Source: Xanthobacter autotrophicus
Lineage (GTDB): Bacteria; Pseudomonadota; Alphaproteobacteria; Rhizobiales; Xanthobacteraceae
DNA length: 64,000 nt
Assembly (NCBI RefSeq): GCF_005871085.1
Contig: NZ_VAUP01000031.1
Location: forward strand, 1 to 64,000
Direction of reading: 5' to 3'
The translations under genes were made by a program, and so were the position numbers. Shown in pieces: positions 10,481 through 37,733 of this stretch; positions within the stretch are counted from its first letter, which is position 1, and each line of letters begins with the position of its first letter. The notes beneath the pieces are model-generated. The model saw only the letters and a program-made list of their open reading frames with translations. It was not told the DNA's origin and made no database searches.

Positions 10481-10515
10481 TGTGTGTTCGCGGTTCGTTG
10501 AGCCGCGAACACACA
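10481..10515 (+). terminator. 13-bp hairpin after the PadR gene
   Basis: TGTGTGTTCGCGG (10481-10493) and its exact complement (10503-10515) enclose a nine-base loop, 10 bases after the stop codon. There is no T run, so it is a likely 3'-end hairpin of uncertain strength. Confidence 0.5.
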
Positions 10516-10583: not shown

Positions 10584-10608
10584 TTTATGATGTTTCATAC
10601 ATCATAAA
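10584..10608 (+). promoter_or_regulatory. Palindromic operator upstream of the XRE-hyf operon
   Basis: TTTATGATGT (10584-10593) and ACATCATAAA (10599-10608) are perfect 10-bp arms around TTCAT. The AT-rich dyad lies 73 bases before the XRE gene in otherwise GC-rich DNA, as expected for a repressor site, most simply that of the XRE protein. Confidence 0.55.
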
Positions 10609-10680: not shown

Positions 10681-10971
10681 ATGATCACAGCCGCCCAGCT
10701 TCGCGCCGCCCGTGCGCTTCTCGGCCTCGACCAGCGCGCGCTCGCGGCCTTGAGCGGCCTCTCCCTGCCCACCATCCAGCGCATGGAAGCCAGCGACGGC
10801 GTCATCCGTGGCAATGTGGATTCGCTCATGAAGCTCGTGGGCGGGCTGGAGGCGTCGGGCATCGAGCTCATCGCCGAAGGGGCCGCCAGCGAGGCTGGAG
10901 GAAGGGGCGTGCGGCTAAGGGCGCCGACACCCGCGCCCCTTGCGGCCCGGCCCCCGGCGGGGGAGGACTAG
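10681..10971 (+). CDS. XRE-type helix-turn-helix regulator
   Basis: 96 residues from ATG 10681. MITAAQLRAARALLGLDQRA then LAALSGLSLPTIQRMEAS is a compact HTH-3 domain. It is followed by a helix (NVDSLMKLVGGLEASGIELI) and a Pro/Ala-rich tail, typical of small single-domain XRE regulators. An in-frame TTG at 10615 would add 22 residues but falls close to the dyad at 10584-10608, so the internal ATG is preferred despite a weak ribosome site. The stop lies 4 bases before hyfB, so the protein is probably the first product of that operon and a candidate regulator of it. Confidence 0.75.
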   Translation: MITAAQLRAARALLGLDQRALAALSGLSLPTIQRMEASDGVIRGNVDSLMKLVGGLEASGIELIAEGAASEAGGRGVRLRAPTPAPLAARPPAGED

Positions 10972-10975
10972 GCCC

Positions 10976-13021
10976 ATGCCCGACGCCGCCTTCGTCGCGC
11001 AGCTTCCCGTCAGCGGGCAACTCTTCATCGCCCTCGCTGCGGTGGTGGCGCTTCTGGCCCTCGCCGGGCTTGGCGTGGCGACGGCGCGTCGTCCGCTGGG
11101 CCGGCCCCTGGTCTATGGCGGTGCGCTGGTGGTGACGCTGGTGGCCGGCCTCTCCGCCCTCACCGCCATCGCAGCGCCTGCGGCCGGGCTTGTGCTGCCC
11201 CTGGGCATTCCCTGGATCGGCGCGCACCTGCGGCTCGATGCCCTGTCGGCGGTCTTCCTCGCGGTGATCAATCTCGGCGGCGCGGCGGCCAGCCTCTATG
11301 GCCTCGGCTATGGCCGGCACGACCATGCCCCTGAACGGGTGCTGCCCTTCTTCCCGGCCTTCCTCGCCGGCATGAACATGGTGCTGCTGGCAGACGACGC
11401 CTACAGCTTCCTGCTGTCGTGGGAATTCATGTCGCTGGCGTCCTGGGCGCTGGTGGTGGCCCATGACAAGGAGGCAGGCAATGTGCGCGCCGGCCTCGTC
11501 TACATTCTTATGGCGTCCTTCGGTACCCTGGCGCTGATGCTGGCCTTCGGCCTGCTCGCCGCCGGCTCCGGGGGCGGCTACGCCTTCGACGCCATGCGCG
11601 AGGCGCCCCCCGTGGGGGCCTTCGCCGCGCTGGTGCTGGCGCTCGCCATGCTGGGCGCCGGCTCCAAGGCGGGCCTGGTGCCGCTGCACGTCTGGCTGCC
11701 TTTGGCCCATCCCGCCGCGCCCAGTCACGTCTCCGCCCTCATGAGCGGGGTGATGACCAAGGTGGCGGTCTACGGCTTCATCCGTATCGTGTTCGATCTT
11801 TCCGGCCCGCCGGACTGGTGGTGGGGCATCCCGGTGCTGGCGGCGGGGGGCGTCGCGGCGGTCATCGGCGTGCTGCAGGCGCTGCTTCAAGGCGACACCA
11901 AGCGCGTGCTCGCTTATTCCACCATCGAGAATATCGGCCTCATTTTCGTAGGCCTTGGGCTGGCGCTCGCCTTCTCGGCCAATGGTTTTCCCGCCGCCGC
12001 CGCGCTGGCGCTCACGGCGGCGCTGTTCCATGTGCTCAACCACGCGGCCATGAAAAGCCTGTTGTTCTTCGGTGCCGGCGCGGTGCTCACCGCCACCGGG
12101 ACACGGCAGATGGACGAACTGGGCGGCCTCATCCACCGCATGCCGACCACCAGCGTGGTGATGCTGATCGGCTGCGCCGCCATCTCGGCTTTGCCGCCGC
12201 TCAACGGTTTTGCCTCCGAATGGCTGGTGTTCCAGGCGGTGCTGCTGAGCCCGGAGCTGCCGGCCTGGGGGCTGAAGCTGATGGTGCCGGCCGTGGGCGC
12301 GCTGATGGCGCTGGCCGCGGCGCTGGCGGCCGCCTGCTTCGTGCGGCTCTACGGCATCGCCTTCCTCGGCCGGCCGCGCAGCCCCAAGGCCGCCGAGGCC
12401 CGTGAGGTGGACGGCTTCTCCCGCGCCGCCATGATCGCGCTCGCGGCCGTGTGCGTGGGCGCGGGGCTGCTGCCGGGCTTCGTCATCGATGCGCTCCAGC
12501 CGGCGGTGGGTGGCCTGGTGGGCCAGACCATGCCGGCGCAGGGATCCGTGGCGTGGCTCTCCATCATACCGGTGGCCGAGAGCCGCAGCTCCTATAACGG
12601 GCTGCTGGTCTTTGCCTTCACGGCACTGTCGGCGCTTCTGGCCGCTTTCGCCATCCATCGCTTCGCCTCGGGCGCGGTGCGGCGGGCGCCGCCGTGGGAT
12701 TGCGGCTTCCCCAATGCCAGTCCGCTTGCGCAATATTCCGCCGCCTCCTTCGCACAGCCCATCCGCCGGGTGTTCGCGCGCGGCCTGTTTGCGGCCCGGG
12801 AGAAGGTGGAGATGCCGCCCCCCGGCGCGCTCACCCCCGCCCGCTTCTCCGCCAGCGCGCGCGATCCCGCCTGGGCCTTCCTGTTCCTGCCTTTGACGGC
12901 GGCAGTGGACTATGTGGCTGAGCGGGCGAACACGCTGCAATACCTCACCATCCGCCAGTATCTGGGCCTCGTCTTCTCGGCCCTGGTGCTGCTGCTTCTG
13001 GTGCTCGCCCTATGGACCTGA
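10976..13021 (+). CDS. hyfB: Hydrogenase-4 component B homologue, antiporter-like membrane subunit
   Basis: 681 residues from ATG 10976, preceded by GGGGGAGGA. It is a polytopic protein of the NuoL/MrpA proton-translocating family. YSFLLSWEFMSLASWALVVA contains the conserved membrane Glu, SKAGLVPLHVWLPLAHPAAP the conserved Lys and His of the channel, and TKRVLAYSTIENIGLI the second half of the antiporter core. In formate-hydrogenlyase-type complexes this subunit couples redox chemistry to ion movement. It overlaps hyfC by 10 bases. A start 36 bases upstream (GTG) is possible but would overlap the XRE gene. Confidence 0.88.
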   Translation: MPDAAFVAQLPVSGQLFIALAAVVALLALAGLGVATARRPLGRPLVYGGALVVTLVAGLSALTAIAAPAAGLVLPLGIPWIGAHLRLDALSAVFLAVINLGGAAASLYGLGYGRHDHAPERVLPFFPAFLAGMNMVLLADDAYSFLLSWEFMSLASWALVVAHDKEAGNVRAGLVYILMASFGTLALMLAFGLLAAGSGGGYAFDAMREAPPVGAFAALVLALAMLGAGSKAGLVPLHVWLPLAHPAAPSHVSALMSGVMTKVAVYGFIRIVFDLSGPPDWWWGIPVLAAGGVAAVIGVLQALLQGDTKRVLAYSTIENIGLIFVGLGLALAFSANGFPAAAALALTAALFHVLNHAAMKSLLFFGAGAVLTATGTRQMDELGGLIHRMPTTSVVMLIGCAAISALPPLNGFASEWLVFQAVLLSPELPAWGLKLMVPAVGALMALAAALAAACFVRLYGIAFLGRPRSPKAAEAREVDGFSRAAMIALAAVCVGAGLLPGFVIDALQPAVGGLVGQTMPAQGSVAWLSIIPVAESRSSYNGLLVFAFTALSALLAAFAIHRFASGAVRRAPPWDCGFPNASPLAQYSAASFAQPIRRVFARGLFAAREKVEMPPPGALTPARFSASARDPAWAFLFLPLTAAVDYVAERANTLQYLTIRQYLGLVFSALVLLLLVLALWT

Positions 13022-13965
13022 TGGCGCAAATCCTGGTGCAGGGCACGCAGATGCTGCTCGTGCTCGCCCTCGCCCCGCTCCTCACCGGGCTGGTGCGCCA
13101 GGCGAAGGCGCGCCTTCAGCGCCGGCGCGGCGCCAGCGTGTTCCAGCCCTATCGCGACCTCGCTCGGCTGCTGCGCAAGGAGGTGGTGCTTGCCGAGAAC
13201 GCCTCCTGGCTGTTTCGCGTGGTGCCTTATCTCGTGTTCGCGGCGACCTGGGTGGCGGCGGCACTGGTGCCCACCTTCGCCACCGGGCTGATCTTCTCCT
13301 GGTCGGCGGACCTCATCGCCATCACCGCCCTCATTGGCTCGGCGCGCTTCTTCCTGGCGCTGGCCGGCATGGATGTGGGCACCAGCTTCGGCGGCCTCGG
13401 ATCGAGCCGGGAGGTGATGATCTCCTCGCTGGCCGAGCCGGCCATGATCATGATCGTGTTCTCCCTGGCCCTCGTCGCCCATTCCACCCAGCTCTCCACC
13501 ATCGCCTCGGTGATGCTGGCGGGCGTGGGCCTGAGGGTATCGCTGGCGCTGGCGCTGGTGGCGCTGCTGATGGTGGCTGTGGCGGAGAACGGCCGTATCC
13601 CGGTGGACAATCCCTCCACCCATCTGGAGCTGACCATGGTGCACGAGGCCATGGTGCTGGAATATTCCGGCCGCCACCTGGCGCTGATCGAGCTGGCCGC
13701 GCAGCTGAAGCTGCTGCTGTTCCTGTCGCTTGTCGCCTGCGTGTTCGTGCCGTGGGGCCTGGCCCCGGTGGGGGCGGGTGTCCCCGGGATGGCGCTGGGC
13801 CTCGTGAGCTATGGGGGCAAGCTCGCCGTGGGGGCGCTGCTCGTCGCCGTGTTCGAGACTTCCATCGCCAAGATGCGGGTGTTCCGCGTGCCGGATTTCC
13901 TCGGCGCCGCGCTCATGCTCGGGCTCTTGGGAACGCTGCTGCTGTTCGTGTCGGGGATCCTGTGA
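13012..13965 (+). CDS. hyfC: Hydrogenase-4 component C homologue (NuoH/HycD-like)
   Basis: 317 residues, about eight membrane helices. RRGASVFQPYRDLARLLRKE and ENGRIPVDNPSTHLELTMVH, with its acidic helix end, are signatures of the NuoH/HycD/EchB membrane subunit, which links the peripheral arm to the ion-translocating arm. It overlaps hyfB at its start and meets hyfE in an ATG/TGA overlap (base 13965 shared), so translation is coupled. Confidence 0.9.
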   Translation: MDLMAQILVQGTQMLLVLALAPLLTGLVRQAKARLQRRRGASVFQPYRDLARLLRKEVVLAENASWLFRVVPYLVFAATWVAAALVPTFATGLIFSWSADLIAITALIGSARFFLALAGMDVGTSFGGLGSSREVMISSLAEPAMIMIVFSLALVAHSTQLSTIASVMLAGVGLRVSLALALVALLMVAVAENGRIPVDNPSTHLELTMVHEAMVLEYSGRHLALIELAAQLKLLLFLSLVACVFVPWGLAPVGAGVPGMALGLVSYGGKLAVGALLVAVFETSIAKMRVFRVPDFLGAALMLGLLGTLLLFVSGIL

Positions 13966-14645
13966 TGATCGAGCACGCCATCACCCCGAACCTCGTCTTC
14001 GATGTCGCCCACATGTTCGCCGGCGCGCTGGTGCTCATCTCCTTCCTGATGCTGTACCAGGACCGGCTCTATGCCCTGCTGAACGTGTTCGCCCTGCAGG
14101 CGGTGGCGCTGGCGCTGGCGGTGGCGTGGCAGGCCTATGCCCAGGACGCGCCGCATCTCTACGTGACCGCGGGCATCGCCCTGGTGTTCAAGGCGCTGGT
14201 GATCCCGGTGTCACTGCATCGCATGGTGGCGCGGCTCGGCATCCACCGTCAGGTGGAGACGGCGGTGTCCATCGGTCCCACCATGCTCGCCGGCATCGCC
14301 CTCGTCGCCTTGTCCATGGTGGTGATGCTGAAGGCCACCCCCGCCGCCGAAGCGCTGGCGCGGGAGGACCTCGCCTTCGCCCTCTCGGTGGTACTGCTGG
14401 GCCTGCTGATGATGGTGACGCGACGCAACGCGGTGAGCCAGGTGGTGGGCTTCATGTCGCTGGAAAATGGCCTCATCCTTGCCGCCACGGGCGCCAAGGG
14501 CATGCCGCTGGTGGTGGAAATCTCGGTGGCCTTCTCCGTGCTCATCGCCTTCATCGTCATCGGCATCTTCCTGTTCCGCATCCGCGAGCGGTTCGACACC
14601 GTGGACGTGGACGCCCTCGACCGCTTCCGGGGAGGGCGCGCATGA
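13965..14645 (+). CDS. hyfE: Hydrogenase-4 component E homologue (NuoK-like)
   Basis: 226 residues with six to seven membrane segments. VGFMSLENGLILAATGAKGM carries the conserved Glu of the NuoK/MrpC-like helix. The C-terminus is charged (FRIRERFDTVDVDALDRF), as in HyfE. ATG overlaps the hyfC stop, and the TGA overlaps the hyfF ATG by four bases. Confidence 0.87.
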   Translation: MIEHAITPNLVFDVAHMFAGALVLISFLMLYQDRLYALLNVFALQAVALALAVAWQAYAQDAPHLYVTAGIALVFKALVIPVSLHRMVARLGIHRQVETAVSIGPTMLAGIALVALSMVVMLKATPAAEALAREDLAFALSVVLLGLLMMVTRRNAVSQVVGFMSLENGLILAATGAKGMPLVVEISVAFSVLIAFIVIGIFLFRIRERFDTVDVDALDRFRGGRA

Positions 14646-16102
14646 TCGGCTCCATCGCCGCGCTGACGTTCAATCCCGCGCCGGTCATCCTCGCCATCCC
14701 GGCGGTGGCGGCGGTGCTGCTGGCGCTGATCCCGTCCTATCGCGTCTCGGCCGCGCTCAATGTGGGCGCCTGCGCGCTGACGTTCCTCACCGCCCTGGCG
14801 CTGCTGGTGGCGCCGCGCATCGCCGGGCCGTTCCTCATCGTGGACGACCTCAACATCGTGTTCGTGGTGCTGAACACCTTCGTGGCCTTCACCACCAGCG
14901 TGTTCTCCGCCAGCTACATCGCCCATGAGCTGGAGACGGGGCGCCTGACGCCGTTGCACCTGCGCTTCTATCACGCCATGTACCAGGTGCTGCTGGCGGC
15001 CATGAACCTGGCGCTGCTCTCCAACAATCTCGGCGTCATGTGGGTGGCCATCGAGGTGGCGACCCTCACCACCGTGCTGATGGTGGGCCTTTATCGCACC
15101 GAGGCGGCCATCGAGGCCGCGTGGAAATATTTCATGCTGGGCTCGGTGGGCATCGCCCTGGCCTTGTTCGGCACCATCCTCGTCTACATGGTGGCTCAGC
15201 CGGTGGTGGGCGAGGGACCGGACGGCATGATCTGGAGCGTGCTGATGAAGCGCGCGCGGGATTTCGACCCGGCCCTGCTCAACGTCGCCTTCGTGTTCCT
15301 GCTGCTCGGCTACGGCACCAAGGTGGGCCTTGCGCCGCTCCATGCCTGGCTGCCAGATGCCCATTCGGAAGGCCCAACCCCCATCTCGGCGGTGCTGTCC
15401 GGGCTGCTGCTCAACGTGGCGCTCTATGCGGTGCTGCGCTTCAAGCTGCTACTCGCGGCCCATCCCGGCACGCTGGCACCGGGGCCGCTGATGATGGCCA
15501 TGGGCCTTGCCTCGCTGCTGCTTGCCGGCTTCATGCTGTACCGGCGGCGGGACATCAAGCGGCTGTTCGCCTATTCCTCCATCGAGCACATGGGTCTCAT
15601 TGCCTTCGCCTTCGGGCTCGGCGGGCCAGTCGCCAATTTCGCCGGGCTGCTGCACATGACCATGCACAGCCTGACCAAGTCGGCCATCTTCTTTGCCGTC
15701 GGCCATGTGTGCCAGGTGAAGGGGTCGCAGAAGCTTTCCGATATTCGCGGGCTCACCACCTCCCACCCGGCCCTGGGCTGGGGGCTCGTGGTGGCGGTGG
15801 CGGCCATTGCCGGCCTGCCGCCGGCCGGCGTGTTCATGAGTGAGTTCCTGCTCGTCACCTCCACCTTCGCGCATAGGCCGTGGCTCGCGCTGCCGCTGGT
15901 GGCGGGGCTGCTGCTCGCCTTCGGCGCACTGATGCTGAAGCTCTCCGGCATCGCCTTCGGTGCGCCCAGCCCGGGTACCGACAAGGTGAAGGCGAGCTAT
16001 TTGCCCATGACGGTGCATCTCGCTCTGGTGCTGGTGGCCGGGCTCTATCTGCCGCCGCCGCTGGTGGCGTGGTTCCGGCACGTGGCCGGGCTGTTGGGCT
16101 AG
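14642..16102 (+). CDS. hyfF: Hydrogenase-4 component F homologue, second antiporter-like subunit
   Basis: 486 residues. It belongs to the NuoN/NuoM/MrpD family: VMWVAIEVATLTTVLMVGLY (conserved Glu), GTKVGLAPLHAWLPDAHSEG (Lys and His), and IKRLFAYSSIEHMGLI then HMTMHSLTKSAIFFA. With HyfB this gives the complex two ion-channel subunits. It ends 9 bases before hyfG. Confidence 0.9.
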   Translation: MIGSIAALTFNPAPVILAIPAVAAVLLALIPSYRVSAALNVGACALTFLTALALLVAPRIAGPFLIVDDLNIVFVVLNTFVAFTTSVFSASYIAHELETGRLTPLHLRFYHAMYQVLLAAMNLALLSNNLGVMWVAIEVATLTTVLMVGLYRTEAAIEAAWKYFMLGSVGIALALFGTILVYMVAQPVVGEGPDGMIWSVLMKRARDFDPALLNVAFVFLLLGYGTKVGLAPLHAWLPDAHSEGPTPISAVLSGLLLNVALYAVLRFKLLLAAHPGTLAPGPLMMAMGLASLLLAGFMLYRRRDIKRLFAYSSIEHMGLIAFAFGLGGPVANFAGLLHMTMHSLTKSAIFFAVGHVCQVKGSQKLSDIRGLTTSHPALGWGLVVAVAAIAGLPPAGVFMSEFLLVTSTFAHRPWLALPLVAGLLLAFGALMLKLSGIAFGAPSPGTDKVKASYLPMTVHLALVLVAGLYLPPPLVAWFRHVAGLLG

Positions 16103-16111
16103 GGGCGCACC

Positions 16112-17617
16112 ATGCAAGCCTTCGCACTGCTTCTGGAAAATGGCCGCGCCGGTCCCTGCCGGCCCTTTCCGCGCGCCGAGGTGAGCGCAGAGCAGTGGAC
16201 TGCCCTTGCCGGGCATCTGGCGGCCGGCGAGCTGGTGCTCATGGGCCTGTGGGGCGATGCGGGTGTGGTGCACATGGCGTTGCTGGACGAAGCGTCCGGC
16301 CGGCTTGCCGTGGCCACCTATGTCTGCGTTGGCGGCGCCTTCCCCTCGGTGGCGCACTATCACCCGCCGGCGGCGCGGCTGGAACGCACTGTGCGCGACC
16401 TCTTTGGCCTCGTGCCCGAGGGCGCGCCCGATCCTCGCCCCTGGCTCGATCACGGTCGCTGGGGCGTGCGCCATCCGCTGGGGGTGAACCTGCCGGCGGA
16501 GCCTGAGGGCGATGCCTATTCCTTCCTCGCGGCGGAAGGGGAGGGGCTGCACCAGATCCCGGTGGGCCCGGTGCATGCGGGCATCATCGAGCCCGGCCAT
16601 TTCCGCTTCTCCTGCTACGGCGAGACGGTGGTGCGGCTGGAGGCCCGGCTCGGCTATGTGCACAAGGGCATAGAGGGCCTCATGGCCGGTGCGGAGGTGG
16701 CGCAGGCGGCGCGGCTCGCCGGGCGGCAGTCCGGCGACAGCACGGTGGCCTATGCGCTCGCCTTCAGCCGCGCGGTGGAGGCGGCGCGCGGCGTCGCCGT
16801 GCCGGCGCGGGCCCATGCCCTGCGCGGGGTGATGGCGGAGCTGGAGCGCCTTGCCAATCATCTCGGCGACATCGGCGCCATCTGCAACGATGCCGCCTTT
16901 GCGCTGATGCTGGCCCATTGCGGCGTGCTGCGCGAGAAGGTGCTCAGGGTGTCCGCCCGCGCCTTCGGCCATCGGCTGATGATGGATGGCGTCATCCCCG
17001 GCGGGGTGGCGGGGGATCTGGCTCGGGAAGGCATTTCGGCCATCCGCGTGCTGGTGTCCGAGGTGCGCACGGCCTTCCCGGCGCTGGTGGAGCTTTATGA
17101 CAACACGGCTTCGCTTCAGGACCGCACCGTGGGCACCGGCTTCACCCGGCCGGATTATGTCCGCCAGTTCGGTGCCGGCGGCTTCGTGGGCCGCGCCTCC
17201 GGCCGGCCCTTCGATGCGCGGCGGGCGCTCGCCTATCCGCCCTATGATCGCCTGCCGTTCGAGGTGGTGGTGCGGACCGAGGGCGACGTGAACGCGCGGA
17301 TCTGGGTGCGCATCCGAGAGGTGGAGCAGAGCCTGGGCCTCGTGGTCCGCCTGCTCGACACCCTGCCGGAGGGGCCGGTCGCGGTGGAGGTTCCGCCGGG
17401 TCCCGGCGAGGGCCTCGCGGTGGTGGAAGGCTTCCGTGGCGACGTGCTCGCCTTCGTGGCGCTGGAGACGGACGGGCGGGTCAAGCGGGCCCATCTGCGC
17501 GACCCGTCCTGGTTCCAGTGGCCGCTGCTGGAAACCGCCATCGAGGGCAACATCGTCGCCGACTTTCCCCTCTGCAACAAATCCTTCAACTGCTCCTATT
17601 CGGGCGTGGATCTTTAG
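16112..17617 (+). CDS. hyfG: HyfG-like large subunit lacking NiFe-ligand cysteines (Ehr complex)
   Basis: 501 residues: an N-terminal NuoC-like domain (about 60-120, HYHPPAARLERTVRDLFGL) fused to a NuoD/hydrogenase large-subunit domain (about 150-501, GYVHKGIEGLM, ERLANHLGDIGAICND, RPDYVR). In formate-hydrogenlyase large subunits the first NiFe motif is RxCGxCG. Here the aligned stretch is RLAGRQSGDS (201-210), so both Cys are absent (Ala203, Gln206). The C-terminal motif, normally DPCxxC, reads NKSFNCSYSGVDL (489-501), keeping one Cys at most. The protein therefore should not bind a NiFe centre. No C-terminal processing tail follows. This is the hallmark of energy-converting-hydrogenase-related (Ehr) complexes. 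Confidence 0.9.
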   Translation: MQAFALLLENGRAGPCRPFPRAEVSAEQWTALAGHLAAGELVLMGLWGDAGVVHMALLDEASGRLAVATYVCVGGAFPSVAHYHPPAARLERTVRDLFGLVPEGAPDPRPWLDHGRWGVRHPLGVNLPAEPEGDAYSFLAAEGEGLHQIPVGPVHAGIIEPGHFRFSCYGETVVRLEARLGYVHKGIEGLMAGAEVAQAARLAGRQSGDSTVAYALAFSRAVEAARGVAVPARAHALRGVMAELERLANHLGDIGAICNDAAFALMLAHCGVLREKVLRVSARAFGHRLMMDGVIPGGVAGDLAREGISAIRVLVSEVRTAFPALVELYDNTASLQDRTVGTGFTRPDYVRQFGAGGFVGRASGRPFDARRALAYPPYDRLPFEVVVRTEGDVNARIWVRIREVEQSLGLVVRLLDTLPEGPVAVEVPPGPGEGLAVVEGFRGDVLAFVALETDGRVKRAHLRDPSWFQWPLLETAIEGNIVADFPLCNKSFNCSYSGVDL

Positions 17618-17625
17618 GGTCGGCC

Positions 17626-18138
17626 ATGCGCAAGCTTCTCCTCCAAGGGCTGCTGAAAGCCCCCCTCACGGAGGCCGCCCCGGAAGATGCGGCGGTGGAA
17701 AAGCTCGCAGCAGAGCTGAATGGGGCGGCGCGCGCGCGGCTCGGGCGCAGCCTGTCCATCCGCGAGGTGGATGCGGGCTCGTGCAACGGCTGCGAGCTGG
17801 AGATCCATGCGCTGGGCAATGCCTTCTACGACCTGGAGCGCTTCGGCCTGCACGTGGTCGCCTCGCCCCGCCATGCGGACGTGCTGCTGGTGACCGGACC
17901 AGTGGCGAAGAACATGGCCGAGGCGCTGAAGCGCACCTATGACGCGACGCCGGCGCCGAAATGGGTGGTGGCGGCCGGCGATTGCGCCATCAATGGCGGC
18001 CTCTTCGCCGGCAGCTATGCCAGCGATGGCGGCGTGGAGGCCATCGTGCCGGTGGACCTCAGGATTCCCGGCTGCCCGCCGACGCCGGTGGCGCTCTTGA
18101 CCGGCCTCCTCGCTTTGCTGCGGGCCGGGAAGGGCTGA
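17626..18138 (+). CDS. hyfI: HyfI-like small subunit (NuoB family) with intact 4Fe-4S site
   Basis: 170 residues. Four cysteines for a proximal [4Fe-4S] cluster are present: Cys53 and Cys56 in GSCNGCELE, Cys120 in GDCAINGG, and Cys150 in PGCPPTP. The CxxC spacing is that of hydrogenase small subunits and not the CC pair of NuoB. The partner large subunit has lost the NiFe ligands while this cluster is kept. It is the last gene of the operon; no HyfA/HyfH ferredoxin subunit and no hypA-F maturation genes are in the window. It ends 13 bases from the convergent GntR gene. Confidence 0.9.
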   Translation: MRKLLLQGLLKAPLTEAAPEDAAVEKLAAELNGAARARLGRSLSIREVDAGSCNGCELEIHALGNAFYDLERFGLHVVASPRHADVLLVTGPVAKNMAEALKRTYDATPAPKWVVAAGDCAINGGLFAGSYASDGGVEAIVPVDLRIPGCPPTPVALLTGLLALLRAGKG

Positions 18139-30081: not shown

Positions 30082-30708
30082 TCACATCAACCCGACGATC
30101 CAGCGGTCGAACAGCCAGCCGATCCAGATGGCCGGCGCGAAGAACAGACCGAACGGCAGCCGGTCCCGCACCCGCACGGCGCGGCCGGTAGTAAGGCGGC
30201 GGATGCCATAGGCCATGAGCCCGGCAAGGGCCGCCGTTTCCACCGCCACCGGCATGGCGGTGACGCTGAGCCAGACCCCTGCCACCGCCGCGAGCTTCAC
30301 GTCGCCCAGCCCCAGCCCGTCGCGGCCGCGCAACGCGCGGTAGCCGAGGCGAATGGCGAGGAACATGATGGCCAGCCCGGCGCCGCCGAGGAACGCGGAG
30401 ATGACGCCGTCCACCGGCTCCGGCTCCGGCGCCGTGGCCGCGGCGGCAAGGCCAAGGAGAAGGCCGAGCGCGTTCAATGAATCGGGAATGATGAAGTGCC
30501 GTCCGTCGATGACGGCGATGGCGGCGAGGACCGGCACCAGCGCTGCCGCCAGCAGGCCGACCACGGACGGCTCCACCGCAAGGCTCGCGGCCATGGCGGC
30601 CATGACCACCGCCGCGAGGGCCACCTTGCCGGCCAGGTCGCCGGTGGCGTGCAGGCGGGTCGGGGACGACCGGCGGGCGGGGGAAGACAGGGTCACGGCC
30701 GGCCTCAC
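30082..30708 (-). CDS. gspO: Prepilin peptidase of the type II secretion system
   Basis: 208 residues, six or so membrane helices of the A24 aspartic protease family. The two catalytic Asp are in AVIDGRHFIIPD and GLGLGDVKLAA. The N-terminal methyltransferase part and its cysteine cluster, present in long PilD/GspO enzymes, are absent, as in CpaA-like short forms. It should cleave the GspG, H, I, J and K leaders encoded on the opposite strand. It overlaps gspD by four bases. Confidence 0.88.
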   Translation of the reverse strand: MRPAVTLSSPARRSSPTRLHATGDLAGKVALAAVVMAAMAASLAVEPSVVGLLAAALVPVLAAIAVIDGRHFIIPDSLNALGLLLGLAAAATAPEPEPVDGVISAFLGGAGLAIMFLAIRLGYRALRGRDGLGLGDVKLAAVAGVWLSVTAMPVAVETAALAGLMAYGIRRLTTGRAVRVRDRLPFGLFFAPAIWIGWLFDRWIVGLM

Positions 30709-33008
30709 CGTGCGCCGAGCGGGGCCTGCGGGCCGCCGGGCAGGGTGGTGACGGTGCCGCGCAGCTTGGCGCGCAGCTCCTCGGCCACCGTGTGGGCATC
30801 CACATTGTCGCGGATGATCTGGGGGCGGATGAAGATGATCAGCTCGGTGCGCTTCACCGTGCCCGTGGTGTGGGCGAAGGCGTCGCCGACGCCGGGGATC
30901 TGGTCGAGGATGGGCACGCCCTGGCGCACGCCGTTATGGCGCTCGCTGATGAGGCCGGCGAGCAGCACGGTCTGCCCGCTCGCCACGGCGATGACGCTCT
31001 TCACCTTGCGCTGGGACACGGTGGGGGTGAGCCCGGTGGAATTGCTGCTGGTGCCGCTGGTGGTGGGATCGGACTGGGTGACGTTGCTGATCTCCTGCTC
31101 GATCTCGAGGCGCACCTGCCCGTTCACGTTCACCCGCGGCACCACATGCAGGATGATGCCGGTGTTCTTGTACTCGATGGTGTTGACCACCGTGTTGGAC
31201 GACGACAGCACCGTGGCGCTGCCGGTGGAGACCGGCACCTCGTCGCCCACCTGCAGCGTCGCCTTCTGGTTGTCCACCACCACGACCGAGGGGTTGGACA
31301 GCACCTTCACGTCGGTGACCGTATGCAGGGCATCGAGGATGGCGCGGGGCTGGTTCTCGCGGCCCACCAGCAGGTTGAAGCCGGGCAGCACGCGGTTGAT
31401 GGCCTGGTCGGTGATCTCGCCCGAGAGGGTGTTCAGCACCGAGCCGTTGTTGCGGCCGAGGCCCAGGTCCTTGCTGGTGAGGTAGAACTGCACGCCATAG
31501 GCCAGCGTGTCGTTCAGCGTCACCTCGGCCACGGTGGCCTCGATGGCCACCTGCATCTGTGGTTGGTCGAGCTGCATCAGGGTGCGCTCGATGATGCGGT
31601 AATTCTCCTGACTGGCGAAGATCAGCAGCGAGTTGTTCACCGCATCGGCGGTGATGCGGATGCCGGGCAGCAGCGCGCCGCCCCCTCCCGAGCCGCCGCC
31701 GGAGCCGCCCAAAGGCGCGCCCTCACTGTCGACGGCGGTAGCCTTGCCGCCGGAGCCGCCCGTGTCCTGCTTGGGCGGGGATTGGCCGAGCCGCTGCTGC
31801 ACCGTGAGGCCCGATCCCGACCCATTGCCGTCCGAGCCGCCGCCGGAGGACACCGAGGCGCCGGAGCCCGGCGCGATCTGGCTTGCCGCCTGGTCGAGGC
31901 CGCTGGACGATCCGCCCACGAACAGGTCGTTGAGCACCTTCGCCGTCTGCTTGGCGTCGCCGTAGCGCAGGCGATAGACGCGCACCCCCACCGTGGTGTC
32001 GGAGCGGTCGAGGCGGCCGATCCAGGTGCCGGCGGTCTGCAGCAGCTCCGGCTTCTTGGCCACCACCATGATGGCATTGAGCCGGGTGATGGCCTGGAAC
32101 TTCACCATCTTGTGGCTGAGCCCGCTGTCGCCCGCATCCATGATGCTCTCCAGCTCGGAGATCAGCGCCTCGGGCGCGCTGTTGCGGACCGGATAGACCC
32201 CCACCGACTGGCCGCGCATCCAGTCCGCATCGAAGGAGAGCACGGTGTTGATGGCCGATTGCCGCTCCGCCCCGGTGCCCTGGATGATGAGCAGGTTGCG
32301 GCCGGGATCGGCGCGCACGGCACCGGCCTTGGTGGCGAAGCTGTCGAGCAGCGGCATCAACGCTTCGGCCGAGACATAGCGCAGCGGCACCACGGAGATG
32401 CCGTAACCCGGCTCCGGCCGCGAGGTGCCCACGTCGGCATTGCCGCCGCCCGCCGCCTCGGTGAGGGGCACGAGGCGATAGCCGGAGGCCTCGCGCACCA
32501 TGGCCACGTTGTTGGTCTTCAGCGCGGTTTCGAGCACGTAGAGCAGCTCGGTTTTCGGCACCGGCCGGGCCGAGGCCAGGGTGACCGTGCCCTGCACCCG
32601 CGGGTCGATGACGTAGCCCACGCCGAGGATATCGCCCAGCACGACCTTGGCGACGCTGGTCACCGGCGTGTTGTCGAAGTTGAGGTCATAGCCGTCGGCG
32701 CCGCCGCTCACGCCGCCCCGTCCCGCCACCCCGACCTCGGAGCGGTCGGAGACCGATGCCGAGGTGCTGGAGCCGAAATATTCGATGGCCTTGCGGTCGT
32801 CGGGAATGTCCTGTGGGCCGGGCACGGGCTTGGTATCGCGGGGCAGCAGGTCGATGGCGCGCACCTGGTCCATCACGCTCGGTGGCTTGACGTCGTCGGG
32901 CACCAGCGAGCACGCGGCCAGCGCCGTGGCGATGAGGATCGCGCACGTCAACAGCAGGGTGCCCGGTCGGGAGCCGAACCGGTTGGGCCGATCTTTCCGC
33001 ACTTCCAC
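30705..33008 (-). CDS. gspD: Type II secretion secretin
   Basis: 767 residues from a GTG start. The lipobox LAAC puts the lipidated Cys at 33. N0-N3 periplasmic domains cover about 110-420 (LNFDNTPVTSVAKVVLGDIL, VGVYPVRNSAPEALI, VGVRVYRLRYGDAKQTAKVL), with a long Gly/Ser-rich insert in N3. The C-terminal secretin barrel includes VSTGSATVLSSSNTVVNTIE, QRKVKSVIAVASGQTVLLAG and VPILDQIPGVGDAF. It forms the outer-membrane pore. It is divergent from gspE and followed by gspO and the Sel1 gene. Confidence 0.93.
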   Translation of the reverse strand: MEVRKDRPNRFGSRPGTLLLTCAILIATALAACSLVPDDVKPPSVMDQVRAIDLLPRDTKPVPGPQDIPDDRKAIEYFGSSTSASVSDRSEVGVAGRGGVSGGADGYDLNFDNTPVTSVAKVVLGDILGVGYVIDPRVQGTVTLASARPVPKTELLYVLETALKTNNVAMVREASGYRLVPLTEAAGGGNADVGTSRPEPGYGISVVPLRYVSAEALMPLLDSFATKAGAVRADPGRNLLIIQGTGAERQSAINTVLSFDADWMRGQSVGVYPVRNSAPEALISELESIMDAGDSGLSHKMVKFQAITRLNAIMVVAKKPELLQTAGTWIGRLDRSDTTVGVRVYRLRYGDAKQTAKVLNDLFVGGSSSGLDQAASQIAPGSGASVSSGGGSDGNGSGSGLTVQQRLGQSPPKQDTGGSGGKATAVDSEGAPLGGSGGGSGGGGALLPGIRITADAVNNSLLIFASQENYRIIERTLMQLDQPQMQVAIEATVAEVTLNDTLAYGVQFYLTSKDLGLGRNNGSVLNTLSGEITDQAINRVLPGFNLLVGRENQPRAILDALHTVTDVKVLSNPSVVVVDNQKATLQVGDEVPVSTGSATVLSSSNTVVNTIEYKNTGIILHVVPRVNVNGQVRLEIEQEISNVTQSDPTTSGTSSNSTGLTPTVSQRKVKSVIAVASGQTVLLAGLISERHNGVRQGVPILDQIPGVGDAFAHTTGTVKRTELIIFIRPQIIRDNVDAHTVAEELRAKLRGTVTTLPGGPQAPLGAR

Positions 33009-33415
33009 CCGATGCCTCGATGAACCCAGCTGCCGTTCGAGGTGGATGGCCCCGATCTCCGGACGGACGACACCTAGTATCGATGGCGTATGACAGAAAT
33101 ATTAGGGTCACCCAAAGTTGTGGAACGACTGGCCTTGCACCGTGCGCGGGGCGGGACTGTTGCGGGACTGTCATGAAGTCGCCGCGAAACCTTCATGGGG
33201 CGTCACGATGATGCGCCCGCCGGCGAGAGCGCGTTCGGGCCGCATGGCCTTGTCATGTTCGATCAGGGACCCATGGAAGGGGCACCCGCGTGGCGGCCGT
33301 CGCGGGGCGATTGTCGTCCGGCGCATGCGAGAACCCTGCCCGGCGGCACGGATCAAGGTGAGGCGCGACGGGCGAGCCAACTGGCCGGCGTGCCGTTCGG
33401 GCGACGGGGACAGGG
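33009..33415. other. gspD-gspE divergent intergenic region
   Basis: 407 bases. An AT-richer segment lies at about 33075-33120, followed by the Pho-box-like direct repeats at 33157-33196. A short open frame crossing 33118-33519 has no family match and is treated as noise. No unambiguous -35/-10 pair was seen. Confidence 0.55.
33157..33196 (+). promoter_or_regulatory. Pho-box-like 11-bp direct repeats
   Basis: Units spaced exactly 11 bases read CTGTTGC (33157), CTGTCAT (33168), TCGCCGC (33179) and CCTTCAT (33190). The second is a perfect PhoB half site, the first and fourth are partial and the third is poor. GCGGGACTGT is also repeated at 33151 and 33162. The site lies between the divergent gspD and gspE operons. 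Confidence 0.4.
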
Positions 33416-35167
33416 ATGGCGGCCGACGGCGCCGGCGAATTCGTCGGCGATTTCATGGGCTATCTGGCGCGATGCGGGCTGCTGCGGCCGGGCGACGCCG
33501 TGCCCGCGCGGCCCGATGAGGCGCACTCCGTCGACACCCGCGCTTCGGATATGCGCCCTTCCGCGCCGCTCTCCGTCGAGACCGCAAAGCCCCTGCGCAA
33601 GGTGTGGGAATCCACCGAGCTTCCCGCCGGCGATTTCGCCGACGCGGTGGCCGCCTTCTATCGCCTGCCCCGCGTGAGCCTGCCGGAACTGATGGCGGCG
33701 CCCGCGCTGGTGTCACACTTCTCGCCGCGCTTCCTGCGCGAGATGACGGCGCTGCCTTTTCGCGGCGCCGATGGCGCGGTGCGCCTCGCCGTGGGCGATC
33801 CCACCGACGGGGCGGTGCGGCGCGCCGCCGAGATCGCCTTGGGCGAAAAGGTGGCGCTGGTGGTCGCCTCCTTCGAGGACATCGCCACGGTACTCACCGA
33901 GCGACTCGGCGGGGATGAAGTGCCGGCGGCCGGGATCACGGAGGCCGGCAGCGCGCGGGCAGACGACGACATCGACAGCCTGCGCGATCTCGCCTCCGGC
34001 GCGCCGGTGGTGCGGGCGGTCAACGACCTCTTGGAAAAGGCCATGGAGCTGCGCGCCAGCGATATCCATATCGGCCCGTTCCGGGGCACCATCGAGGTGC
34101 GCATGCGCATCGACGGCCTGCTGCGGGTCGTGCCCGCGCCCGCCGACGTGCTGCCCCAGGCGGTGATCTCCCGCATCAAGATCCTCGCCGGCCTCGACAT
34201 CGCCGAGCGCCGTCTGCCGCAGGACGGCGCGGCGCGCCTGAAGCTCGGCCGCTCCGAGATCGACGTGCGCGTGGCGCTCATGCCCACCCAGCACGGCGAG
34301 GCGGCGGTGATCCGCCTCTTGCCCCGCGACCGGGGCCTGTTGAACATGGACAAGCTCGGCCTGTCGCCGGGCGATGCGGAAATCCTCAAGCGGCTGCTGG
34401 CGCTGCCCCACGGCATGGTGGTGGTCACCGGACCCACCGGGTCGGGCAAGACCACCACGCTTGCCACCATCCTCTCCATCCTGAACGAGCCGACGCGGAA
34501 GATCCTCACCATCGAGGACCCGGTGGAATATGAGATCAAGGGCGTCTACCAGTCGCAGGTGAAGCCCGCCATCGGCCTCACCTTCGCCGCCGCCCTGCGC
34601 TCCTTCCTGCGCCACGACCCGGACGTGATCATGGTGGGCGAGGTGCGCGATCCCGAAACCGCGCACATCGCGGTCCATGCCGCGCTCACCGGCCATCTGG
34701 TGCTCACCACGCTCCACACCGACACGGCGGCGGCCTCGGTGCCGCGCCTGCTGGATCTTGGGGTGGAGGGCTTCCTGCTGAAATCCACCCTGCGGGCGGT
34801 GATCGCCCAGCGGCTGGTGCGCCAGCTGTGCGACCGCTGCAAGCGGCCGCGCACCCTCACAGCGATGGACGTGGCCGACGACCCGCGCTTCTCGGCCCTC
34901 GGCTTCAAGGCCGGCGAGACCGTGTACGAGCCCAAGGGCTGCGAGCGCTGCGGCGGGGCCGGCTATCGCGGCCGGGTGGGGGTGTTCGAGATCCTCACTC
35001 TCTCCGACGAGATCCGCGAGATGATCGACCGCCACGCGGGGGCTAGCGCCGTGGACAAGGCGGCCATCGCCGGCGGCATGACCACGATGCTGGACGACGG
35101 CATCCTGAAATGCCGGGCCGGCATCACCTCGCCGGCCGAGGTGCTGCGCGTGACCACCGTGCGCTGA
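33416..35167 (+). CDS. gspE: Type II secretion ATPase
   Basis: 583 residues. An N-terminal GspE domain (about 60-170) is followed by the motor domain: Walker A GPTGSGKTTTL, Asp box TIEDPVEYEI, Walker B DVIMVGEVRDPETA and His box HLVLTTLHTDTAAA. A zinc-binding tetracysteine is present (CDRC then CERC). It is the cytoplasmic hexameric motor that drives pseudopilus assembly. ATG 33416 has a purine-rich GGGGACAGGG upstream. The stop overlaps the gspF ATG by one base. Confidence 0.94.
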   Translation: MAADGAGEFVGDFMGYLARCGLLRPGDAVPARPDEAHSVDTRASDMRPSAPLSVETAKPLRKVWESTELPAGDFADAVAAFYRLPRVSLPELMAAPALVSHFSPRFLREMTALPFRGADGAVRLAVGDPTDGAVRRAAEIALGEKVALVVASFEDIATVLTERLGGDEVPAAGITEAGSARADDDIDSLRDLASGAPVVRAVNDLLEKAMELRASDIHIGPFRGTIEVRMRIDGLLRVVPAPADVLPQAVISRIKILAGLDIAERRLPQDGAARLKLGRSEIDVRVALMPTQHGEAAVIRLLPRDRGLLNMDKLGLSPGDAEILKRLLALPHGMVVVTGPTGSGKTTTLATILSILNEPTRKILTIEDPVEYEIKGVYQSQVKPAIGLTFAAALRSFLRHDPDVIMVGEVRDPETAHIAVHAALTGHLVLTTLHTDTAAASVPRLLDLGVEGFLLKSTLRAVIAQRLVRQLCDRCKRPRTLTAMDVADDPRFSALGFKAGETVYEPKGCERCGGAGYRGRVGVFEILTLSDEIREMIDRHAGASAVDKAAIAGGMTTMLDDGILKCRAGITSPAEVLRVTTVR

Positions 35168-36378
35168 TGGCGACCTTCACCTACAGGGCCCTCACCCAGG
35201 CCGGACAGATCGTGAGCGGCGAGATCACCGCGCCCACCGAGGCGGAGGTGCGCCGGCGCATCGAATTCCTCGGCCTCATGCCGGTGGAGACCGCCCCCGC
35301 CCGGGCCAAAAGCGAGGGCGGGCGGTTCGGCCTGTCGCTGGGCGGGCCGAAGGCGGAGGACGTGACCCTCTTCACCCGCGACCTCGCTTTGCTGCTGAAG
35401 GCCGGCGCGCGGCTCGACGAGGCGCTGGAGCTGCTCTGCGGCGATGCCGACCTCGGCCGCATGCGGGCGGTGGTGCGCAAGCTGCGCGCCGACGTGCTCG
35501 CCGGCCAGAGCTTCGCCGAGGCGGCGGCGGGGGAGCCCAAGCTGTTTCCGCCGGTTTATGTGGCGCTGGTGCGGGTAGGTGAAGCCTCCGGCACCATGGA
35601 CCGCATCCTCGACCTTTTGGCCCAGGAGCGCGCGCGGGCCGAGCAGTTGCGCCGCAAGCTCATGGAGGCGCTGCAATATCCCGCCTTCGTGCTGGTGGCG
35701 GCGGGTGGCGTGCTGGTGTTCTTCCTGCTGTTCGTGCTGCCGCAATTCTCCACCGTGCTGCGGGACATGGGCGCCAAGCTCGATCCCGCCGTGGAGATGC
35801 TTCTGAACCTGTCGGACCTCGCTCAGGCCCATGGCGCCGCGCTGGGGGCGGGGGGGTGCGCGCTGGTGGTGCTCGCGTGGCTGGTGCTGCGCCGGCCGGC
35901 GACGCGCACCGCCGTGATGGGCACGCTGGCACGGCTGCCGCTGGTCAGCACCATCCTGTTGTTCCGCCGCTCGGCCGTGTTCTGCCGCAACCTCTCCATC
36001 CTGCTGGGCAACGGCGTCACCCTCACCCAGGCGCTGCGCATCATCGTGGAGGTGATGGCGGCAGGCGACGACGCATCCGTCTGGGCCGCCACCTCCGACA
36101 AGGTGCGCCAGGGCGCGCGGCTGTCGGATGCGGTTTCCGCCGGCGCGGCGCTGCCGCCCATGGCGGTGCGCATGCTGCGCCTCGGCGAGGAGACCGGACA
36201 ACTCGCCATGCTCTCGGGCCGCATCGCCGATTTCTACGAGGAAAAGCTCCAGCGCTCGCTCGCGAAGGTGGTCGCGATTATCGGGCCAGCTGCCATCGTC
36301 ACCATCAGCGTCGTCGTCGGCGGCCTGATCGTTTCCGTCATGACCGCGCTTTTGTCGGTCAGCCAAAGCATCGGATGA
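35167..36378 (+). CDS. gspF: Type II secretion inner-membrane platform protein
   Basis: 403 residues from ATG 35167 (TGATG overlap with gspE). Two T2SF domains (about 70-190 and 270-395) are separated by membrane helices: FTRDLALLLKAGARLDEALE and FCRNLSILLGNGVTLTQALR are the duplicated signatures. The C-terminal membrane helix is PAAIVTISVVVGGLIVSVMT. It is the membrane platform for the ATPase. Confidence 0.94.
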   Translation: MATFTYRALTQAGQIVSGEITAPTEAEVRRRIEFLGLMPVETAPARAKSEGGRFGLSLGGPKAEDVTLFTRDLALLLKAGARLDEALELLCGDADLGRMRAVVRKLRADVLAGQSFAEAAAGEPKLFPPVYVALVRVGEASGTMDRILDLLAQERARAEQLRRKLMEALQYPAFVLVAAGGVLVFFLLFVLPQFSTVLRDMGAKLDPAVEMLLNLSDLAQAHGAALGAGGCALVVLAWLVLRRPATRTAVMGTLARLPLVSTILLFRRSAVFCRNLSILLGNGVTLTQALRIIVEVMAAGDDASVWAATSDKVRQGARLSDAVSAGAALPPMAVRMLRLGEETGQLAMLSGRIADFYEEKLQRSLAKVVAIIGPAAIVTISVVVGGLIVSVMTALLSVSQSIG

Positions 36379-36854
36379 ACCGCGTGAATATTCTTCTTCC
36401 GGCGGGCGCCGCCCGCGCCGCCCAGATCCGCCGCCGGCGAAAGAATGAAGGGGGCTACACCCTCGTGGAGTTGCTGGTGGTCATCACCATCATCGGCCTC
36501 ATCGTCGCCCTGGTGGGGCCGCGCGTGCTCGGCTATCTCGGCGACAGCAAGGTGAAGACCGCGAAGATCCAGATCCAGGGCTTCTCCAGCGCCCTCGATT
36601 TGTTCTATCTCGACACCGGCCGCTATCCCTCCACCTCGGAGGGCCTTGCCGCGCTGGTCCAGCGCGCTCCGGGCGCCGCCACCTGGAACGGGCCGTACCT
36701 GAAGGGCGGCACCCTGCCGTCCGACCCCTGGGGCAAGCCTTATTCTTATCGCGCGCCGGGCGAGCACGGCGCCTACGACATCGTCTCCCTGGGCTCGGAC
36801 GGGCAGCAGGGCGGCACCGGCACCGCCGCCGACATCACGAACTGGTCGAAGTGA
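36375..36854 (+). CDS. gspG: Major pseudopilin
   Basis: 159 residues. The prepilin site is Gly27|Tyr28 in EGGYTLVELLVV, with Glu at +5. The leader is unusually long (27 residues) and ends in RRRRKNEGG, and the +1 residue is Tyr rather than Phe. The body has the GspG features LGYLGDSKVKTAKIQIQ, LDLFYLDTGRYPS and the calcium-loop region SLGSDGQQGG. ATGA overlaps join it to gspF and gspH. Confidence 0.94.
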   Translation: MNRVNILLPAGAARAAQIRRRRKNEGGYTLVELLVVITIIGLIVALVGPRVLGYLGDSKVKTAKIQIQGFSSALDLFYLDTGRYPSTSEGLAALVQRAPGAATWNGPYLKGGTLPSDPWGKPYSYRAPGEHGAYDIVSLGSDGQQGGTGTAADITNWSK

Positions 36855-37342
36855 GCCGCGCGCACACCATCGCCGCGAAAGCGGGGCAGGCGGGCTTCAG
36901 CCTGCTGGAGGTGGTGTGCGCGCTGGCCATCGTCGCGGCGCTGGCGGCCCTCGCCCTGCCGCGCATGCCGCTGGGCACTTCGCGCCAGCGGCTTCAGGCC
37001 TATGCGGTGGAGACCGCCGCTTTGCTGAAGGCGGATCGCGCCGCCGCTTTGCGGCGTGGCTTGCCGGTGGCCACCGTGGTGGACGCCCCGGCAGGACGCA
37101 TCCGTTCCGGCGCCGGCGGGCGGCAGGGGGTACGCGAGCTGCGCATTCCCGCCGACGTGCGCATGACCGCCGTGCTGCCGAACATCTGCAACGGCCGGGC
37201 GGCGGGTGGTCGCATCGGCTTTTTGCCCTCGGGCCTGTCCTGCGGCGGGGTGGTCGCCCTCACCCGCAACGGCGCAGGTTATGAGGTGCGGGTGAACTGG
37301 CTGACGGGAGGAGTGGAGATTGTCCCACGCCTCAAGTCCTGA
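36851..37342 (+). CDS. gspH: Minor pseudopilin H
   Basis: 163 residues from GTG 36851. Prepilin cleavage is predicted at Gly15|Phe16 (AGFSLLEVVCALAIV) with Glu20. The C-terminal GspH-like domain follows (RIRSGAGGRQGVRELRIPAD). It overlaps gspG by four bases and gspI by 23 bases. Identification rests on position and the short leader more than on body similarity. Confidence 0.85.
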   Translation: MSRAHTIAAKAGQAGFSLLEVVCALAIVAALAALALPRMPLGTSRQRLQAYAVETAALLKADRAAALRRGLPVATVVDAPAGRIRSGAGGRQGVRELRIPADVRMTAVLPNICNGRAAGGRIGFLPSGLSCGGVVALTRNGAGYEVRVNWLTGGVEIVPRLKS

Positions 37343-37733
37343 AGCCTTCGCCCGCGCGACGGCCGTCGAAGGCTTCACCCTGCTGGAGGTGCTGGTGGCC
37401 CTCGCGGTGGCGGCGGCGGTGCTGGCGGCCATCGGGCAGGTGATGGGCGCCAACGGGCGCGGCGCCCGGGCGCTGGAGGCGCGCACCGGCCTTCTCTCCA
37501 CCGCGCGGGCGGTGGAGACCGGCATCCCGGCCCGGAGCGCCCTTGCTCTCGGCCGCACCGATGGCGACATCGCCGGTCATGGCTGGCGCATGGATGTGCG
37601 GCCCCTCGCCGTGGCCGGGGTGCCCGAGGGCGCCAAATGGGCGCCGCGCGACGTGGTGATCCGCGTGCGCGCGCCCTCCGGCGCCATGGTGGTGCTGGAG
37701 ACGGTGCGCCTCGTGCCGGTGGCCGCCGAATGA
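37320..37733 (+). CDS. gspI: Minor pseudopilin I
   Basis: 137 residues from TTG 37320, supported by GGGAGGAG a few bases upstream. Prepilin cleavage is at Gly18|Phe19 (EGFTLLEVLVALAVA) with Glu23. A C-terminal GspI-type domain (WRMDVRPLAV, RAPSGAMVVLETVRLVP) follows. The rare TTG start and 23-base overlap with gspH suggest translational coupling. Confidence 0.87.
   Translation: MSHASSPEAFARATAVEGFTLLEVLVALAVAAAVLAAIGQVMGANGRGARALEARTGLLSTARAVETGIPARSALALGRTDGDIAGHGWRMDVRPLAVAGVPEGAKWAPRDVVIRVRAPSGAMVVLETVRLVPVAAE

Follow-up and report, generated by a model that had tools for sequence, protein, structure and literature searches.

A seven-gene operon of Azorhizobium caulinodans, hyqRBCEFGI, was published in 2009 as an "endo-hydrogenase" whose HyqG subunit was said to carry a NiFe centre; the available parts of that report name an orthologous operon in Xanthobacter autotrophicus Py2 (PMC2650096), listed in 2010 as XAUT0165-0171 (PMC2930871). 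Here we analyze the operon at positions 10681-18138 of a 64,000-nucleotide stretch of X. autotrophicus DNA (NZ_VAUP01000031.1, positions 1 to 64,000; hereafter the window). This operon is hyqRBCEFGI, the orthologue of the A. caulinodans operon and a member of the known hyq and energy-converting hydrogenase-related (Ehr) kind. Its large subunit, HyqG, almost certainly lacks a NiFe site, and the complex as a whole is a compact one, related to both respiratory complex I and hydrogenases but without the nickel-iron centre that handling hydrogen requires.

The published claim is that hyq encodes an aerobic bidirectional hydrogenase recycling the H2 of nitrogenase. As set out in the accessible portions of the A. 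caulinodans papers, hyq is induced under N2 fixation in a NifA-dependent manner (PMC2650096, PMC2930871, PMC3357923), and mutants from which the seven genes have been deleted grow more slowly as diazotrophs, lose more H2 at 20 µM O2 and release less H2 below 1 µM O2. Given these mutants, together with reporter fusions and H2 measurements, hyq is not simply "functionally obscure", the label that a sequence-only reading of the window had applied to Ehr complexes. A 2012 paper from the laboratory of the 2009 report records, in its available text, that both CxxC motifs are missing from the HyqG of eight genera, which share three conserved cysteines in their stead, and regards a NiFe site as uncertain or even unlikely (PMC3357923); both the kind of operon and the lesion in its cysteine motifs are therefore already in print (2009, 2012). 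Within open-licence PMC, Hyq is treated solely by these three papers, and three further papers in which "endo-hydrogenase" appears merely cite the first. Ehr complexes, in the available parts of four further reports, are group 4-like and lack Ni-Fe ligands, or are of undetermined function (PMC6349859, PMC7894505, PMC6728331, PMC6688271). New here are a ligand-column survey of 121 HyqG proteins, the failure of the three cysteines in a distant group, a census of HypD and nifH, and the conservation of a dyad upstream of hyqR.

Architecture and relatives of the hyq operon

Seven tightly packed genes fill 10681-18138, each overlapping or almost abutting its neighbour: one for an XRE-type regulator and six for proteins homologous to HyfB, C, E, F, G and I. 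The sequence-only reading had placed the six structural genes and the helix-turn-helix gene correctly:

10681..10971, + strand: hyqR, 96-residue HTH_3/XRE regulator (PF01381, 26.3 bits against a cut-off of 23)
10976..13021, + strand: hyqB, membrane subunit of antiporter-like type (HyfB) whose charged residues and His are conserved
13012..13965, + strand: hyqC, NuoH/HyfC-like membrane subunit, from family searches
13965..14645, + strand: hyqE, HyfE-like membrane subunit (NF008556, under its cut-off)
14642..16102, + strand: hyqF, antiporter-like membrane subunit (HyfF)
16112..17617, + strand: hyqG, fused NuoC::NuoD-type large subunit without NiFe ligands
16724..16741, + strand: codons R205-Q-S207-G-D209-S210, by alignment the place of the hydrogenase RxCGxC motif
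17588..17605, + strand: codons N493-C494-S495-Y-S-G498, by alignment the place of the DPCxxC motif; the protein ends three residues on
17626..18138, + strand: hyqI, NuoB-type subunit with four [4Fe-4S] Cys codons at 17782, 17791, 17983 and 18073

Family searches gave 871 bits for HyfB (cut-off 667), 880 bits for HyfF (cut-off 533) and 80 bits for the HyfE-like subunit, below its 136-bit cut-off, and assigned HyqC as a NuoH-type HyfC, HyqG as a NuoC::NuoD-type large subunit and HyqI as a NuoB-type small subunit. The window has the R-B-C-E-F-G-I order of the hyq family; among 80 related loci, B-C-E-F-G-I is kept in all 65 complete operons (65/65), and in 57 of them hyqR immediately precedes the set in the same orientation. 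In A. caulinodans ORS571, whose genome was recognized through a published primer, the seven genes stand in identical order, at identities to the window of 81% (HyqR), 69% (HyqB), 78% (HyqC), 79% (HyqE), 76% (HyqF), 63% (HyqG) and 72% (HyqI), and its HyqG likewise has Ser/Ser/Ser/Gly at the ligand places. The closest named relative is X. oligotrophicus 29k, whose HyqG is 95% identical.

Hyq shares with Escherichia coli Hyf and Hyc the Hyf subunit types B, C, E, F, G and I, the HycE fold and residues E160, H163 and R442, but it lacks the four NiFe cysteines and the C-terminal tail, and its operon has no HyfA, HyfD or HyfH. NuoCD-, NuoB-, NuoH- and NuoL/M/N-type subunits link it to complex I, although the operon encodes no NADH module or NuoI, there is one cluster only, and the quinone His and Tyr are replaced. 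The earlier expectation of two antiporter-like subunits, one cluster and no ferredoxin subunit in the operon is supported. The small subunit of Ehr complexes keeps an N2-type four-cysteine site, which is present in HyqI. An Ehr large subunit without NiFe ligands (PMC6349859, available parts) and antiporter-like subunits are likewise found in the window, supporting assignment to an Ehr-type complex without a NiFe site. The Ehr of Mycobacterium branderi has the same six subunit types in the order C-E-F-G-I-B, and the mycobacterial large subunit, 33% identical to HyqG, carries Glu/Ala/Cys/Gly rather than Ser/Ser/Ser/Gly at the ligand places.

Plasmid and phylum scans separate a near group, whose HyqG are at least 53% identical to that of the window, from a distant group (e.g. 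Methylocalor, Cupriavidus) at about 41-51%; one weak in-between match is a 45%-identical fragment. Below the distant group stand motif-bearing HycE-type hydrogenases at 30-33% and the mycobacterial Ehr at 33%. In a tree of 48 rows that we chose, support is 100/98 for the split of Hyq plus the mycobacterial Ehr from three motif-bearing group 4 hydrogenases, and 100/100 for their split from complex I. "Near" and "distant" denote identity groups rather than proven clades: neither is a single clade in the tree, each needing two changes, five rows sit at an unresolved base, and two rows (L127 and L141) have very long branches and an unsure placement. One genome carries two HyqG genes on separate contigs (G138:C61 and G138:C13; 66% and 59% identical to that of the window), and in one distant-group operon (L138, 9135-12149) hyqF and hyqG occupy a single 1005-codon frame, possibly a natural fusion or an assembly error.

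Loss of the NiFe site and remodelling of the HyqG pocket

Ligand columns were located in a MAFFT alignment of HyqG with E. coli HycE, HyfG and NuoCD and with the genome's own NuoD. All four NiFe ligands are replaced (Cys1 by Ser207, Cys2 by Ser210, Cys3 by Ser495 and Cys4 by Gly498). The sequence-only reading had recognized this loss, but the string it quoted, RLAGRQSGDS, begins four residues early; the place of RxCGxC is R-Q-S-G-D-S, with R205 as the aligned arginine. The comparison set comprised 121 proteins, 106 near-group and 15 distant-group; L106, a copy of L031, was left out, and 25 whole-genome rows were counted even where some deviate in single columns. Ser occupies column 1 in 105/106 near-group and 13/15 distant-group proteins, column 2 in 103/106 and 11/15, and column 3 in 104/106 and 12/15, and Gly occupies column 4 in 105/106 and 15/15. 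Because the same residues recur in nearly all 106 close relatives, a sequencing error as the cause is untenable. No HyqG has two Cys among the four columns (0/121), and two distant-group proteins (L138, L140) have one.

The C-terminus falls three residues past the last ligand column in 96/96 HyqG checked (81 near and 15 distant, the 25 whole-genome rows lying outside this check), compared with 35 in HycE and HyfG, so that a maturation tail like theirs is missing from every one. None of the group 4 traits RxCGxC, DPCxxC and maturation tail is found in HyqG. An AlphaFold model of HyqG (mean pLDDT 77.6) has as its closest solved fold HycE of formate hydrogenlyase (7z0s_E, TM 0.82); since residues 135-185 and 478-501, around the pocket, score below 50, the pocket geometry was set aside and the overall fold alone was compared.

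As far as is known, HypD is required for any NiFe site. In one draw of 389 genomes from the source organism's class, each 95% complete or better (genes may be missed in draft assemblies), HyqG was found in 34 at a limit of E <= 1e-120, which would miss most distant-group proteins, HypD over its cut-off in 25 and nifH over its cut-off in 14; weaker NifH-family matches occur in 382 of the 389. Among the 34 carriers, 11 have HypD, 7 have nifH (8 counting a split copy) and 23 have neither, Labrys okinawensis and a Sphingopyxis sp. (G736 and G800) among them. A second sample, 41 named hyq isolates that we picked from the 80 loci and that is rich in rhizobia, contains 17 without HypD, 22 with nifH (21 over the cut-off) and 14 with neither. 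Many hyq carriers, lacking HypD, would therefore be unable to assemble a NiFe site. HypD is present in the source genome (5.0 Mb), but so is a genuine NiFe hydrogenase that would itself depend on it, with a true NiFe large subunit at C29:98467; there are further NiFe-family matches, and the genome encodes a full NuoD separately from hyq and three nifH above the family cut-off. The true NiFe large subunit and HypD (94001-113000, L162) are on the contig of hyq (C29), some 80 kb away, and a second NiFe-family large subunit (174001-186000, L163) lies about 160 kb from hyq on the same contig.

Homology and gene order shared with Hyf, and HycE as the closest solved fold, speak for the enzyme of the original publication, a NiFe hydrogenase of the usual group 4 type. 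With the ligand pair in 0/121 proteins, the tail absent in 96/96 and HypD absent in 23/34 and 17/41 carriers, that explanation is refuted at the sequence level, and we regard it as wholly improbable. The nifH counts bear on the proposed role as well: in the 23/34 carriers with neither HypD nor nifH, there is no nitrogenase H2 to recycle. Many carriers would thus lack nitrogenase H2, contrary to the published claim of co-selection, in which hyq is said to be absent from non-diazotrophs generally (PMC2930871, available parts).

Twenty residues are shared by both HyqG groups, with no more than two exceptions, and occur in none of HycE, HyfG and NuoCD; those at the former motifs include D209, N489, K490, N493 and G498. 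Asp209, Asn489, Lys490 and Asn493 (at most two exceptions in 121; none in HycE, HyfG or NuoCD) form, with Ser207, Ser210 and Ser495, an aligned polar set in the former NiFe place. HyqG also keeps Glu160, His163 and Arg442, common to HycE and HyfG, which we take to be hydrogenase second-shell residues. The quinone-binding residues of NuoD in complex I, presumably His38 and Tyr87, align with Ile159 and Gly208, so that any quinone site in HyqG would be putative. Taken together, ligand loss, the conserved polar set and the missing quinone His and Tyr point to a selected site of another kind: the pocket is under selection, but it is no NiFe site and does not copy the quinone site of complex I. C258, C488 and C494, the cysteines singled out in the 2012 paper, are present in the window and kept in 105, 105 and 104 of 106 near-group HyqG, and in 6, 3 and 4 of the 15 distant-group proteins; as a new metal site they were rejected as a general explanation.

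Proposed function and its rivals

An alignment confirms that HyqI keeps all four [4Fe-4S] cysteines, as originally read; each is retained in 79/80 close and 15/15 more distant HyqI proteins (94/95 overall). The charged residues of the membrane arm (HyqB, C, E, F) are intact and conserved, and an ion pump or its reverse is for this reason expected. HyqG and HyqI would together make up a cytoplasmic module that holds a single N2-type [4Fe-4S] cluster, as the conserved ligands suggest. A single cluster beside a pocket without metal ligands suggests a soluble carrier reacting with a small substrate.

On balance, and with restrained confidence, we favor the view that Hyq is not a NiFe hydrogenase but an ion-pumping oxidoreductase of the Ehr type, which has a single [4Fe-4S] cluster and a pocket free of metal and is autoregulated by HyqR, whatever its donor and acceptor. 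HyqB, C, E and F would constitute the ion-pumping membrane arm. Electrons would pass between a soluble carrier and the HyqI cluster, and the HyqG pocket would be where a small substrate reacts, most likely a quinone whose site differs from the one in complex I; this reaction would be reversibly coupled to ion translocation. HyqR would bind the upstream dyad and control its own operon, as conservation suggests. The H2 effects in A. caulinodans may then reflect an altered redox poise around nitrogenase, the weakest step of the scheme.

An intact membrane arm and the lack of a donor subunit would suit a rival reading, that of a redox-dead ion transporter, an Mrp-like antiporter built of complex I parts; such a dead complex would not need cluster cysteines kept in 94/95 HyqI or a strongly constrained pocket, and we consider it very unlikely. 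The Mbx/MBS type of hydrogenase-related complex reduces a small substrate at its cluster. That Hyq does the same, with for example a sulfane or nitrogen species in place of quinone, fits its membership of that architecture class, the absent complex I quinone residues and the conserved charged residues of the pocket; no linked gene points to such a substrate, and the proposal seems rather doubtful.

Several observations weigh against the oxidoreductase we favor. Neither linked genes nor HyqR sites identified an electron donor or acceptor, and the Ile159 and Gly208 replacements count against the quinone it would most likely use. Across the 389 genomes hyq is enriched where HypD (odds ratio 11.6) or nifH (12.9) is present, and 24/41 named isolates have HypD. 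In strains without hupSL, according to the available text of PMC3357923, H2 evolution at 20 µM O2 is 16 units with hyq and 540 without it, and below 1 µM O2 the output is 14,000 when hyq is missing and rises to 61,000 when it is present. In the genome taken as A. caulinodans, the other NiFe large-subunit family matches all lie inside the hup locus. This hyq-dependent H2 consumption without hupSL, with no NiFe large-subunit match outside hup, is the hardest fact to reconcile, as far as the accessible accounts go: either the A. caulinodans strains carry a hidden confounder, or Hyq handles H2 without nickel.

On the second possibility Hyq would be a true hydrogenase, but of an undescribed kind that needs neither nickel nor Hyp proteins and uses the HyqI cluster together with HyqG's remodelled polar pocket. 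It would explain the hyq-dependent H2 uptake and evolution without hupSL, with the other NiFe matches confined to hup, and the retention of E160, H163 and R442. It would also suit the statements, in the available parts of PMC2930871, that a 20-gene hup/hyp deletion still recycles H2, for which no figures appear there, and that Rhodocista centenaria, without hup/hyp, does so too (marked as data not presented). However, the A. caulinodans deletion took hyqR along with the operon, and complementation does not appear in the available parts of the published accounts; 23/34 carriers have neither HypD nor nifH, hence no nitrogenase H2; and Cys258, Cys488 and Cys494, the candidate residues, are poorly kept in the distant group. 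We judge this explanation unlikely. Its fullest form, a new hydrogenase kind with no nickel, NiFe ligands or Hyp, handling H2 by one [4Fe-4S] cluster in a Ser/Asp/Asn/Lys pocket and pumping ions in aerobes, is decidedly improbable.

HyqR, its upstream dyad and the neighbourhood

The dyad noted upstream of hyqR by the sequence-only reading is real:

10584..10608, no strand assigned: inverted repeat TTTATGATG-TTTCATA-CATCATAAA, proposed HyqR operator; core TGATGT-N5-ACATCA at 10588-10604

The core is the sole window match to TGATGTNTNNNACATCA at up to two mismatches (shuffles, both strands, mean 0.24). Of 63 regions upstream of hyqR, taken from the window and from 62 of the 80 loci, 25 contain TGATGT-N5-ACATCA at up to one mismatch, compared with 0.21 in shuffles and 0/62 control windows, and 24 of these 25 keep the N5 spacer; in another 25 of the 63 it is missing even at two mismatches. 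In A. caulinodans a perfect copy lies 93 bp ahead of hyqR, exactly as far away as in the window. In 15 genomes picked largely for a good hyqR site, the source genome among them, a perfect dyad was found in 10, the source genome included, at one place each, with the sequence of that genome's hyqR site. This conservation strongly supports the suggested XRE control through the dyad. Seeking the electron partner through the HyqR regulon was given up: each of the 10 genomes has a single perfect site, with the hyqR-site sequence, and no partner emerged. A one-mismatch palindrome at C4:147353 of the source genome has phage-like open reading frames (ORFs) nearby, by eye.

The consensus NifA box is TGT-N10-ACA and the sigma-54 site YGGNWN6YTGC. 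In these forms the NifA box is not enriched upstream of hyqR (2/63 regions; 2.66 in shuffles), the sigma-54 site appears in 0/63 (1.39 in shuffles), and neither occurs within 200 bp upstream in the window or within 330 bp upstream of A. caulinodans hyqR. Both had been reported at A. caulinodans hyq in 2009 (PMC2650096, available parts), perhaps by a looser consensus, and the reporter data of that paper stand. The pair is a regulatory trait of one species and no orthology criterion, and the window lacks it. On the simplest reading of these sites, HyqR is autoregulatory through the dyad, and NifA dependence in A. caulinodans would be indirect or act through a non-consensus site. Nine Bradyrhizobium loci (L008, L028, L033, L044, L045, L047, L059, L065, L070) have a second hyqR, 70-78% identical to that of the window, inverted and at most 1.5 kb downstream of hyqI, so that hyqR brackets the operon.

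Clustering of flanking ORFs in the 80 loci yielded no common neighbour other than hyqR. An ABC-transporter ATPase family recurs in 17 of the 80, kilobases from hyq and on either strand, a methyltransferase/spermidine-synthase-like gene in 10, mostly Bradyrhizobium, and a membrane-like ORF without assigned family in 4. Distant-group operons are B-C-E-F-G-I, with no hyqR match found in their loci, and no gene recurs in more than 3 of the 17 more distant loci. In six Rhizobiaceae/Rhizobiales loci (L067, L011, L018, L025, L038, L060) a DUF4365 gene lies just 3' of hyqI (median 16 bp; L067, 12074-13111, 60.5 bits against a cut-off of 24.3) and may be co-transcribed with hyq there. Within the window, a strong GC-rich inverted repeat (10481-10515; 13-bp arms, 9-bp loop) lies between a PadR-like gene and hyqR and was not listed by a terminator scan that requires a T run, and 30705-41703 holds a type II secretion-like gene run, in which the translated ORFs resemble, by eye, a secretin, an ATPase, inner-membrane proteins and pseudopilins.

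Loss of ligands and tail, together with the absence of HypD and nifH from 23/34 carriers, means that the published hydrogenase claim is wrong or else points to new H2 chemistry. The comparative evidence sharpens a real contradiction: Hyq has no NiFe centre, yet published mutants of the nearest relative studied handle hydrogen differently. The conserved HyqR operator offers a handle on when the Hyq complex is made.

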